The position numbers and the translations under genes were made by a program. From Chthoniobacteraceae bacterium (GTDB lineage Bacteria > Verrucomicrobiota > Verrucomicrobiia > Chthoniobacterales > Chthoniobacteraceae), in NCBI GenBank assembly GCA_947471505.1, contig CANIWM010000049.1:1-47165 (forward strand): a stretch of 47,165 nucleotides of DNA, in the 5' to 3' direction. Below, one piece after another: positions 25,494 to 30,214 of this stretch (its first letter is position 1; every line of letters starts with the position of its first letter). The notes beneath the pieces were generated by a model. It ran no database searches. It saw nothing but the letters and a program-made list of their open reading frames with translations, and was not told the origin of the DNA.

Positions 25494-25574
25494 TCCCGCT
25501 CCTTTTTTCCCGCTGCTGGCTGCATTGTGTAGTCCGCGGTGGGTATTTTCATCTCTATATACTTCGCGGAAACA

Positions 25575-27596
25575 ATGCCGAACACCAACGCAAAAGCAGC
25601 CAAAACCAAAGCAAAGTCCTCGAAGAAAACGCCCGCAGCGAAGAACACAAAGGCAGCCAAGAAGGCTCCTAAAGTCAAAGGCCCCGAGAAAAAGCAACCC
25701 GCAAAGGCACAGAAGCCAGCCAAGGCGGTCAAAACAGCCAAGCCCAAACCTGCGAAGAAGGCTAAACCCGTAAAAGCGGTTAAAGCGACCAAGACTCCGA
25801 AAGCAAAACCGGCGAAAGAGCCGAAAGGCAAAAAGATTCATTCCAGCCTCATTGGGATCAGCGCCAAGCTCGCGGAAAAGCTCAATCTTAACGTCAAGGC
25901 GTCTGTCCCGCTCAAGCCGGGCCAGAGCATTCTGGACACCCCCGAAGGTCAGGAGAAACTACGCGAGCTTGTCAAAATCGCCAAGGATCAGGGCTATCTC
26001 ACTTTTGACGACCTGAACGAAAACCTGCCCGAGTCCGTCAGCGACCCGGAGGAGATGGAACTCGTCATGAACCGCCTTCGCGGCATGGAGATTGACATCA
26101 TTGATGCCTCGCAGGTGGATAATTACAAGGTTGGCCCGAAGGATGGCGACCAGCAGCAATCCGGCACGAAAGACGAGGAAGAGCCCGAGAAATCGAACGA
26201 CAAGCTCGACATCCTCGACGACCCCGTCCGCATGTATCTCAAGCAGATGGGCCAAGTCCCGCTGCTCACCCGCGAGCAGGAGGTGGAAATCTCCATGCGC
26301 ATCGAAGATGCCGAGCTCAACGTGCAGAAATTCGTCAACAAGTTCGGCTTTATCCCACGGGCTTACTTGGAACTCGCCCAAAAGCTCATTGACGGTCGCG
26401 AGCGTTTCGACCGCGTGATTCTTGACAAGAAAATCGAGAGCCGCGAGCGCTTCATGAAGGCGCTTCCGAAGATGATGAAGCAGCTTGAAGACGCCTCGAA
26501 CGAAGCCGTCAAAACCTACAAAGCCTTTATGGCTCACGGCGGCACGAACCGGGACAGCAAGACATACCAAGACTTCGTAAAAGCCACGTTCTCCGTGCAG
26601 AAGCTCTACCCGAAGTTCTTCTTCAAACAGAAGGTCACTGAGGATTTCGTCGTCATCGTCGAAGAGCAGCACCGCGTCGTCACCGCACTTTCCCACGAGC
26701 TAAACAAGCCCAAGAAAGACCAACAGCGAGCCGTCGGCGGAGTGAAGGTGGACTACGGCACCAAGCTCAAAGAAGTGCAGGCCCGCGTTTGGATGTCCAC
26801 GGAGGAATTCCTCGCGGAGTTCCAAGAGCTACGCAAGTGGCTGCGCAAGGCCCTCAAGGCCAAGACCGAGATGGTCGAGGCCAACCTGCGCCTCGTCATT
26901 TCCATCGCGAAAAAGTACACCAATCGTGGCCTGTCGTTCCTCGACCTCATCCAAGAAGGCAATATGGGCCTGATGAAAGCGGTCGAGAAATTCGAGTATC
27001 GTCGCGGCTATAAATTCTCCACGTATGCAACGTGGTGGATTCGCCAAGCGATCACCCGCTCCATCGCTGACCAAGCCCGCACGATCCGCATTCCGGTCCA
27101 CATGATCGAGACGATCAACAAGCTGATGCGCGTGCAGAAGCAGCTCGTCCAAGATTACGGACGCGAGCCCACGCCGGAGGAAGTCGCGGAGGAAATCAAC
27201 CTGCCCGTCGAGCGCGTCCGTGCCGTGCTCAAGATGGCGCAGCAGCCCATCTCCCTGCAAAGCCCCGTCGGCGATAGCGACGACACAAGCTTTGGCGATT
27301 TCATCCCCGACCAAACGGCGGAAGACCCCTCCGATGTCACCGCGATTGCTCTTTTGAAAGAGAAAATCCGCGACGTGCTGGACACGCTCACCGAGCGCGA
27401 GCGCCAAGTGCTCGAACAGCGCTTCGGCCTTGTGGACGGCTACAGCCGCACGCTGGAAGAAGTCGGTCGCCAGTTCAAAGTCACCCGCGAGCGCATCCGC
27501 CAAATCGAGGCGAAAGCACTCCGCAAAATGCGCCACCCGACCCGCATCCGGCAGCTCGAAGGCTTCCTCGAAGCGTCGGACATGCACTTGGCGTAA
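25575..27596 (+). CDS. rpoD: Housekeeping RNA polymerase sigma-70 factor with Lys/Ala/Pro-rich tail
   Basis: 673 residues from the ATG at 25575 (GCGGA 5 nt upstream). Residues 1-87 are a histone-H1-like tail with 32 Lys plus Ala and Pro (repeats such as [18 protein letters not shown]). Residues about 90-170 are region 1.1 ([13 protein letters not shown], ...[14 protein letters not shown]). Region 1.2 is [22 protein letters not shown] large non-conserved insert follows, then region 2 near 430-500 ([60 protein letters not shown]), region 3, and region 4 ([35 protein letters not shown]). Essential primary sigma factor for promoter recognition. A strong promoter lies upstream. Confidence 0.95.
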
Positions 27597-27636: not shown

Positions 27637-27654
27637 TTGTGAAAAGTTTCACAA
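27637..27654. promoter_or_regulatory. Perfect Rex operator upstream of nuoB
   Basis: The 18-bp palindrome TTGTGAAAAGTTTCACAA matches the Rex consensus TTGTGAA-N4-TTCACAA at every fixed base. It is centred about 54 bp before the nuoB ATG. Rex is a repressor released by a high NADH/NAD+ ratio and is known to control NADH dehydrogenase, cytochrome and fermentation genes, so the site fits its target. The rex gene itself is not in the window. Confidence 0.85.
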
Positions 27655-27698
27655 ATTCGCCTTGCCGCATTCTGTGCCGCTCGTAGTCTCCGCACATC

Positions 27699-28217
27699 AT
27701 GTCCACGCAAGCCGCTTACGACTCAAAAATCGAGGGCAACATCATCTTTACCAAGGTCGATGCCGCCATCAACTGGATGCGCAAAAACTCGCTCTGGCCC
27801 ATGCCCATGGGCCTCGCTTGTTGCGCCATCGAGCTGATGGCGACAGGCGCATCGCGCTACGACATCAGTCGCTTCGGTGCGGAAGTCATGCGGTTTTCTC
27901 CACGCCAGAGCGACGTGATGATCGTCGCAGGCACCGTGACTTACAAAATGGCGCTGGCCGTGAAACGTATCTGGGACCAGATGCCCGAGCCGAAGTGGTG
28001 CATCGCGATGGGCGCGTGTGCCAGCAGCGGCGGGATGTATCGCAGCTACGCCGTGCTTCAGGGCATTGACCAACTCATCCCGGTGGACGTTTACATTTCC
28101 GGTTGCCCTCCACGCCCCGAGGCGCTCATCGAAGGACTCCTGCGCCTCCAGCGGAAGATTGATACGGAAAAATCGCTCTCCGAGCAAAAGGGCGAACTCA
28201 CTGCGGCGCTGGCGTAA
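27699..28217 (+). CDS. nuoB: NADH-quinone oxidoreductase subunit B
   Basis: 172 residues. The four Cys ligands of the N2 iron-sulfur cluster are visible: the tandem pair in [11 protein letters not shown], one in [10 protein letters not shown], and one in [19 protein letters not shown]. Other signatures are [20 protein letters not shown] and AGTVTYKMA. NuoB passes electrons to quinone at the junction of the peripheral arm and membrane arm of complex I. It is preceded by the Rex box at 27637-27654 and followed 12 bp later by nuoC. Unlike the usual order, nuoA is not upstream. Confidence 0.96.
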
Positions 28218-28229
28218 TCCCTTTTCAAT

Positions 28230-28814
28230 ATGGCCACGAAAAAAGAAGACGCCGACGCGATCTGCGCGAAATTCACGGGAGTAAAGCGGAGCGAGTTTCG
28301 CGGAGAAACCACGCTCACGGTGACGCGCGACCAGTTTCGCGAAATCGCGGAATTTTGCCGCGCGATGGACTACGATTATCTCATCGATGTGAGCAGCGTG
28401 GACCACATGGGCCAGGAGCCCCGTTACGAGATGGTCTATGAGCTGCAATCGCTCGCGCACGTCGGGCACCTCCGACTGAAATACACGGTGAGCGAGGACG
28501 ACTGCACCGCGCCAAGCGTAGTCGATATTTGGGCGACGGCCGATTGGCACGAGCGCGAAGTTTTCGACATGATGGGCATCCATTTCCCCGCGCACCCAGA
28601 CGTGAAGGAAGTCGGCCATCTGCGCCGCATCCTCATGTGGGACGGCTATCCTTTTCACCCGCTCCAGAAAGATTTCCCGCTCGCCGGTCGCGCGAGCAAT
28701 ATGCCGGATGTCGCGTTCAGCGACGCTGCGCCGCTGGCTGGTGGCCCGTTCGTGACTTCGCCGAGCACGGCAGGCACGGCGGAGCGTGAGCCGCGTTCGC
28801 GGGAGATGGAGTAG
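28230..28814 (+). CDS. nuoC: NADH-quinone oxidoreductase subunit C
   Basis: 194 residues of the 30-kDa subunit family: DYDYLIDVSSVDHMG, RYEMVYELQSLAHVGHLRLK, then the signature WHEREVFDMMGIHFPAHPD and RRILMWDGYPFHPLQKDFPL. NuoC is a structural part of the hydrophilic arm that contacts NuoB and NuoD. It starts 12 bp after nuoB and shares its Rex-controlled transcript. A nuoD gene, the usual next gene, is absent; a di-haem cytochrome gene follows after 137 bp. A C-terminal extension of about 30 residues (AGTAEREPRSREME at the end) is Ser/Pro/Ala-rich. Confidence 0.94.
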   Translation: MATKKEDADAICAKFTGVKRSEFRGETTLTVTRDQFREIAEFCRAMDYDYLIDVSSVDHMGQEPRYEMVYELQSLAHVGHLRLKYTVSEDDCTAPSVVDIWATADWHEREVFDMMGIHFPAHPDVKEVGHLRRILMWDGYPFHPLQKDFPLAGRASNMPDVAFSDAAPLAGGPFVTSPSTAGTAEREPRSREME

Positions 28815-28951: not shown

Positions 28952-30214
28952 ATGAAAACAATCCTCACACAAAGCATCGCCACCGCCGCCCTGATCTTCA
29001 TCGCGGCAAATACCACCATCGCGCAGGGTCCACAGCGACCGGCACATCGCCCACCGCCTCCGCACCGCCCAATGCCGCCCGGTCAGATGCCCCCACCGCC
29101 GCCACAACAACAACCGCCGCAACAAGCAGGTGCTCCCCTACCCGGCCTTACAGCGGAGCAACTCGCCGATTTCTTGGCAGGGCGCGATGAGTTCGTGAAC
29201 GTGGAGACTGCGGCCGGCGGACTCGGCCCCATCTTTAATAATGTGTCGTGTGTCGCGTGCCACCGACAGGCCGGCACGGGCGGCGCAGGCACGATCAACG
29301 TCGTCCGCTTTGGCCGAACGACCGACGGCGCATTCGACCCACTCGCCAACCTCGGCGGATCGCTACTCCAGCGGTTTTCTATCGCTGTCGGGACTCGGGA
29401 GATCGTGCCGCCCGAGGCAAATGTGCGCGCGGAACGGCAGACGAGCGCGCTCTTCGGGCTCGGGCTCATAGAAGCCATCCCGGAGGAGACAATCATCGCA
29501 GGCGTCAAGCGCCCACTTTCCACCGCAGTGCGAGGACGTGTGGCGATGATCAGCGATCCGCTCAGCGGCACAACGCGCGTCGGGCGCTTCGGGTGGAAGG
29601 GCCAGCACTCGTCCGTCGAGGCGTTTTGCGGCGACGCCTATTTGAATGAGATGGGCATCACCAACGCTCTCTTCCCTACGGAGAACGCGCCCAACGGCCG
29701 CGCCGATGTGCTCGCACGGCTCGATACCGTCGCCGACCCGGAGGACGAAGCCGACCCCGAGACGGGAAAGGCGGACTTTCAACTCGCTGCGGATTTCGTG
29801 AAATACCTCGGCGCACCACCACCGCGCCCACGCAACGCTGATGCTCTCGCCGGCCAGACGCTTTTCGCAACCGTAGGCTGCGCCGATTGCCACACGCCCA
29901 CGATGAAGACGGGCGCGAACTCCGTCTCTGCGTTAAGCGAAAAGGACGTGCCGCTCTACTCCGACTTGCTCCTTCACGACATGGGCGCGCTCGGCGACGG
30001 CATCGTGCAAGGCCCGACAACAGGTCGCGAGTTCCGTACGCCGCCGCTCTGGGGACTCCGCTCCAGCGCCCCGTACCTGCACGACGGACGCGCCCGCAAT
30101 GTGGACGCATCCATCCGCCTCCATGACGGTCAGGGAAGCAGCGCACGCGATAAATACGCCGCGCTAAATGCCACACAACGCCGACAGATGCTCGCGTTCC
30201 TCGATACATTGTAA
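28952..30214 (+). CDS. Secreted di-haem cytochrome c peroxidase-like oxidoreductase (DUF1111 family)
   Basis: 420 residues. Signal peptide (MKTILTQSIATAALIFIAA... ending in AQG), then a Pro-rich linker (residues about 28-65). Two haem c motifs are present, CVACH near residue 99 and CADCH near 310. Family segments include FNNVSCVACHRQ, RFGWKGQHSSVEAFCGDAY, GITNALFPTEN, FRTPPLWGLRSSAPYLHDGR and a closing RRQMLAFLDTL. This is the di-haem (thiol) oxidoreductase family, periplasmic, of uncertain substrate. It follows nuoC but is probably a separate unit, ending at a good terminator. Confidence 0.87.
   Translation: MKTILTQSIATAALIFIAANTTIAQGPQRPAHRPPPPHRPMPPGQMPPPPPQQQPPQQAGAPLPGLTAEQLADFLAGRDEFVNVETAAGGLGPIFNNVSCVACHRQAGTGGAGTINVVRFGRTTDGAFDPLANLGGSLLQRFSIAVGTREIVPPEANVRAERQTSALFGLGLIEAIPEETIIAGVKRPLSTAVRGRVAMISDPLSGTTRVGRFGWKGQHSSVEAFCGDAYLNEMGITNALFPTENAPNGRADVLARLDTVADPEDEADPETGKADFQLAADFVKYLGAPPPRPRNADALAGQTLFATVGCADCHTPTMKTGANSVSALSEKDVPLYSDLLLHDMGALGDGIVQGPTTGREFRTPPLWGLRSSAPYLHDGRARNVDASIRLHDGQGSSARDKYAALNATQRRQMLAFLDTL

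Follow-up and report, generated by a model that had tools for sequence, protein, structure and literature searches.

The nuoB-nuoC locus

The window, i.e. the whole stretch of 47,165 nt that was analysed, is contig C49 of the host genome G000, which comprises 6.07 Mb in 153 contigs and is 96.7% complete. The following features lie at the locus.

27637..27654, no strand: predicted Rex operator TTGTGAAAAGTTTCACAA, agreeing with 14 of the 14 fixed consensus bases
27662..27667, + strand: presumed -35 element TTGCCG, separated from the operator by 7 nt, placed by its CTTG spacing and by an identical block in relatives
27684..27689, + strand: presumed -10 element TAGTCT after a 16 nt spacer, placed by reading the sequence and the set of nuoB leaders
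27699..28217, + strand: nuoB, complex I 20 kDa subunit, 172 aa (PF01058; NF011390 at 333 bits, cut-off 281)
28230..28814, + strand: nuoC, complex I 30 kDa subunit, 194 aa (PF00329, 4.8e-35)

These family matches bear out the first-pass annotation, in which nuoB and nuoC were taken for a complex I pair. It had also described a palindrome agreeing with the Rex consensus just upstream of nuoB, and this is exact: pattern matching gave 0 mismatches between TTGTGAAAAGTTTCACAA and TTGTGAANNNNTTCACAA, all 14 fixed bases of TTGTGAA-N4-TTCACAA being present, and 44 nt separate the end of the box from the nuoB ATG at 27699. When the window was scanned at up to 3 mismatches, TTGTGAAAAGTTTCACAA was the only perfect match; a single second match had 3 mismatches, shuffled sequence averaging 0.83. 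With the four bases taken as equally frequent, a simple calculation gives ~2e-4 random matches to the 14 bases in 47 kb. As judged by the position of the presumed -10 element, transcription would start ~0-3 nt before the nuoB ATG, and since this element ends 9 nt before the ATG, the nuoB transcript may be nearly leaderless.

A primary-sigma-factor-like gene, in which all sigma-70 regions were recognised by Pfam, lies directly before nuoB (25539-27596). The open frame after nuoC (28952-30214) reads as having a signal-like start, a proline-rich stretch and a CVACH haem-binding motif.

The rex gene of the host genome

The first-pass annotation had proposed a search for a rex gene with Rossmann and winged-helix domains, and one clear copy was found. 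The only G000 gene with a PF06971 match above the cut-off lies on contig C120 (L001:1036-1656) and encodes a protein of 206 aa with the winged-helix N-terminal domain (PF06971, 1.3e-16) and the Rossmann CoA_binding domain (PF02629, 8.3e-15), both above the cut-off. It passes the NCBIfam Rex equivalog NF003993 (243.2 bits, cut-off 217) and matches eight distinct solved Rex sequences. According to work on Thermotoga maritima Rex (PMC8836258), DNA is read by Arg48, Lys49, Arg60 and Gly61, and Tyr100 and Asp191 are NAD(H) residues; as read from the alignment, R49, K50, R61, G62, Y101 and D193 of the G000 protein stand at these functional columns. Near relatives of the protein in named contigs are from Verrucomicrobiota metagenome-assembled genomes labelled Spartobacteria, Chthoniobacteraceae, Verrucomicrobiaceae or Prosthecobacter, labels that conflict below the phylum level.

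The rex gene and nuoA lie on opposite strands ~0.6 kb apart, separated by a tRNA and an open frame of 104 aa. In this region (L126:4036-5648) rex is divergent from the 104-aa frame and nuoA, and L214 and L215 share these neighbours. A full box was not found at G000 rex, where the best match had 4 mismatches. Autoregulation via a full box was rejected, as none is present at rex in the family and only a half-site precedes the start. In many members of the family (e.g. L001, L065, L054 and L055), this half-site, TTTCACAA, immediately precedes the start codon of rex, and in some of them another TTTCAC is found 11-12 nt ahead of it; weak autoregulation through the half-site is possible.

Six perfect boxes in the host genome

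Across the whole G000 genome, the box occurs 6 times in perfect form and 11 times with 2 mismatches, no copy having 1 mismatch; the backwards control pattern gave 4 at up to 2 mismatches. The further copies that the first-pass annotation had suggested looking for are therefore present, and all six perfect boxes precede respiratory operons:

Box 1: before nuoB-C
Box 2: before nuoD
Box 3: before a 131-aa protein and nuoE/F-nuoG-nuoH-nuoI
Box 4: before an operon for a multihaem cytochrome, a large molybdopterin-like/iron-sulphur protein and an NrfD-like membrane protein
Box 5: before a polyprenyl-diphosphate synthase gene, named ispB here
Box 6: before atpB-atpE and further ATP synthase genes

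The scope is wider than that given in the first-pass annotation, nuoB-C being one of six targets. From its gene order, we take the operon after box 4 (act) to encode an alternative complex III. Every NCBIfam match of ispB was under its cut-off; the product probably makes the quinone tail.

Boxes in related genomes

Boxes at up to 1 mismatch numbered 169 in the 40 family genomes, as against 4 for the backwards control (summed by hand). A sample of 132 perfect boxes was drawn from 44 genomes; it covered part of the boxes of the 40 family genomes, together with boxes from four further genomes of the order or class. In this sample, 121 of the 132 boxes precede the reference operons (atpB 32, act 27, nuoD 21, ispB 17, nuoE/F 15, nuoB 6 and nuoG 3). 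The actC entry of the reference set contained the actB sequence, which affects none of these assignments. The other 11 had no match to these operons. Three of them precede mqnE of menaquinone synthesis (G023, G025 and G296; TIGR03700 above the cut-off), two are near sdhC-sdhA and lack the promoter layout described below, one lies between gap and pgk, and three have no assigned gene (G026, G028 and G273). The remaining two precede what is presumably an NDH-2 gene, all NCBIfam matches of which were sub-cut-off. At L138:1459 (G026) and L145:1501 (G028), the perfect box is followed by a common TGTTGCAATC stretch and there is no shared nearby gene; no Rfam match was obtained near these two boxes, the only RNA found being the tRNA beside rex.

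Full sampling covered 25 family genomes. In 22 of these, one or more complex I operons have a perfect box; by target, the number of genomes with a perfect box is 23 for atpB, 21 for act, 14 for nuoD, 12 for ispB, 11 for nuoE/F and 3 for nuoB.

The site at nuoB itself is less constant. nuoB is present in 35 family genomes, and its leader was read in 30 of these, G000 included: seven have a box with at most 1 mismatch, G021 has 3 mismatches, G039 has 4, and 21 have at least 5. Thus, the box is absent from most leaders (at least 4 mismatches in 22/30), which counts against the model of Rex control set out below. The expectation that close relatives keep the box before nuoB held in part. It is present in two of the eight readable same-genus leaders (G032 and G025) and absent from six (G027, G028, G029, G030, G031 and G033), and five of the six have a perfect box at nuoE/F, which suggests that the conserved unit is the regulon and not the nuoB site. 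In the class outside the family, where 3 of 30 nuoB leaders were not located (G296 misplaced; none for G078 and G084), the box is perfect in 11 of the 12 readable leaders from genomes with rex, G282 having two mismatches, and the best match has 4-6 mismatches in the 14 readable leaders from genomes without rex. Being perfect in most rex-bearing class leaders and absent from most family leaders, the nuoB box appears to be an old site that was repeatedly lost. The control point of complex I shifts between nuoB, nuoD and nuoE/F across genera, a regulatory rewiring with the output conserved.

Co-occurrence of boxes and rex

The class set comprised 94 genomes, those of the order and G000 included. 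All 16 with a strong rex hold 4-11 perfect boxes. Of the 78 without one, which include four with weak, sub-cut-off PF06971 matches, 75 have no box and three have one each (G111, G164 and G243). At least two perfect boxes are thus found in 16/16 rex genomes versus 0/78 others, i.e. in the class the boxes track rex. Outside the class, a rex match was obtained in 155 of 194 genomes and a perfect box in seven, one each; this counts against the model, and the relation between box and rex cannot be extended to the phylum. Three family genomes with boxes and no rex match (G018, G019 and G024; 84, 73 and 88% complete, respectively) also count against it.

Genus g48 is a near-natural experiment. Both rex and perfect boxes are present in G282 (five boxes) and G293 (six), and G253 has no rex match and no perfect box. 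In G253 (98% complete; L255, L278 and L287), only the right half-site is left at nuoB, the atpB box is eroded and the nuoD box has one mismatch, the last of which counts against the model in a genome with no rex match. The pattern fits a recent loss of rex with decay under way, or the absence of rex from the assembly.

Promoter architecture

Unexpectedly, of the 104 boxes that do not belong to the ispB set, 101 are followed by CTTG at a distance of 5-8 nt, the gap from box to TTG being 5 nt in 41, 6 nt in 15, 7 nt in 44 and 8 nt in one. In these 101, the TTG is always preceded by C, and in 92% the next base is C. In the opposite flank, 15/104 boxes have any TTG at a distance of 3-9 nt. An AT-rich, -10-like stretch lies 17 nt downstream of the CTTG element. 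In the class nuoB leaders of G273, G226, G276, G256 and G105, which were not part of this count, the box is followed by GTTGC or GTTGT, and hence the C before TTG is not universal. CTTGC was also considered as a general -35 element of G000: in 64 upstream regions, a set that includes the box promoters and is too small for a decision, CTTGC occurs 20 times and its opposite-strand control 14 times, the corresponding numbers for CTTGA being 13 and 6. The combination of the box and a CTTG at 5-8 nt is a motif by which the regulon may be predicted in unannotated genomes.

The ispB box of family members is placed differently, following a TTGACT-like -35 element (the upstream stretch reads TTGACT or TTGACA) and a -10 element and lying over the presumed start; the mqnE boxes are close before the ATG. 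ispB may start at a GTG within its own operator. Strengthening of the promoter in dependence on the box was considered and rejected, as nuoB promoters score alike with and without it: boxless nuoB promoters retain CTTGCC and have a mean score of 5.18 (n=22), as compared with 5.38 (n=8) for boxed ones (p 0.19), under crude weights.

Proposed regulation and alternatives

The palindrome at 27637-27654 is very probably a Rex-binding site. Rex would be an NAD(H)-sensing winged-helix/Rossmann regulator with the palindrome as its operator. While NAD+ prevails, a Rex dimer would occupy the DNA just upstream of the nuoB-C -35 element and hinder RNA polymerase; on build-up of NADH, Rex would be released and nuoB-C transcription would rise. 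The five other promoters of G000 would be under Rex control likewise, so that complex I (nuoB-C, nuoD and nuoE/F-I), the alternative-complex-III-like oxidoreductase, the polyprenyl synthase and ATP synthase would be set jointly by the NADH/NAD+ ratio. We infer Rex binding, the NADH response, the direction of the effect and the transcription start, and induction at high NADH, which the first-pass annotation had predicted for nuoB-C, would follow if this protein behaves like known Rex proteins. Overall, NADH-relieved repression of six respiratory promoters by Rex is the reading in which we have good confidence. A compact respiratory Rex regulon, in which most of the respiratory chain is adjusted together, is likely; in this little-studied group, it would put a single NADH sensor in charge of the split complex I, a quinol-oxidising complex, ATP synthase and the making of the quinone tail.

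That the operator is predicted on firm ground follows from the rex gene, the shared targets, the co-occurrence of boxes with rex and the failure of CRP-type regulators to track the boxes. The consensus of Escherichia coli CRP is TGTGA-N6-TCACA, and by inspection this exact core, which CRP-type sites share, is present inside the box; G000 also has one strong HTH_Crp_2 gene (C105:16986-17198). However, strong HTH_Crp_2 genes (E < 1e-9, the weaker matches that bring the tally to 54/66 being left out) occur in 10/37 box-bearing and 9/29 other genomes (Fisher p 0.79), whereas a strong rex occurs in 37/37 and 0/29 of the same genomes. Furthermore, the targets are all respiratory, and two far relatives outside the class (G201 and G095), whose Rex is 37% identical, have one perfect box each, which lies ~30 nt ahead of rex. 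Binding by a CRP-family regulator is therefore rejected as very improbable. Still less credible is a random palindrome without any regulator, to which the many relatives lacking a box before nuoB might point. In G000, G032 and G025, the box and the -35 element lie within one unbroken identical block, the 34 nt from box to -35 being the same while the upstream sequence of G025 differs. The split of class nuoB leaders by the presence of rex and the ~2e-4 matches expected in the window also argue against chance, which was rejected on the counts in the window, in G000 and across the family, set against their controls.

The direction of the effect is a separate matter. With its centre ~50 bp upstream of the presumed start, the operator could serve Rex as an activator site, and NADH would then turn the respiration genes off. 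This minority reading arises from the position upstream of the -35 element: the operator abuts a sub-consensus CTTGC -35, a common activator placement, with the near-constant gap and the one-sided TTG described above, and the ispB promoter, where the box covers the start, has TTGACT/TTGACA upstream instead. It is weakened by the finding that boxless nuoB promoters are no stronger than the others, and the ispB and mqnE boxes, at or past the start, are in a repressor position. The Rex proteins in the papers compared here are repressors, at nuo and atp as well, and in S. aureus repression is also exerted from sites lying a few bases ahead of promoters (PMC2883068). We consider activation unlikely. 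About equally unlikely is that Rex of this class is dual by operator position, contacting polymerase from ~50 bp upstream at the complexes and covering and repressing the start at ispB and mqnE; the upstream contact, under the same low expectation, would be either activating or a block of the upstream contacts of polymerase. If this were so, one NADH signal would shift quinone supply and complex supply differently, even oppositely. Repression by hindrance of polymerase is the likeliest effect at both positions, given that S. avermitilis and S. aureus sites repress.

Comparison with known Rex systems

A literature search found no paper on Rex in the phylum Verrucomicrobiota. Ravcheev and colleagues are reported to have made a comparative study of Rex in 2012. 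The papers compared here are on Rex of Gram-positive bacteria and Thermotoga.

A close likeness is to Streptomyces avermitilis, in which, according to PMC5355995, Rex binds and represses the nuo and atp operons via the same motif and NADH weakens binding; the consensus and the nuo and atp targets are shared. In that species the operators carry 1-3 mismatches and lie over the -35 element (as at nuo and atp) or the start, whereas the boxes here are perfect and in nearly all cases upstream of the -35 element, a placement that counts against the model. The same text lists cydABCD, rex-hem, hppA and ndh2 as further targets; here, the alternative-complex-III-like operon and the polyprenyl synthase gene are included and rex has no full box. 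In Staphylococcus aureus, the box is the same (TTGTGAAW4TTCACAA) and, according to PMC2883068, repressing sites lie within promoters or a few bases beside them. The targets given there are anaerobic or fermentative (ldh1, pflBA and adhE), whereas the six perfect sites in G000 are all respiratory.
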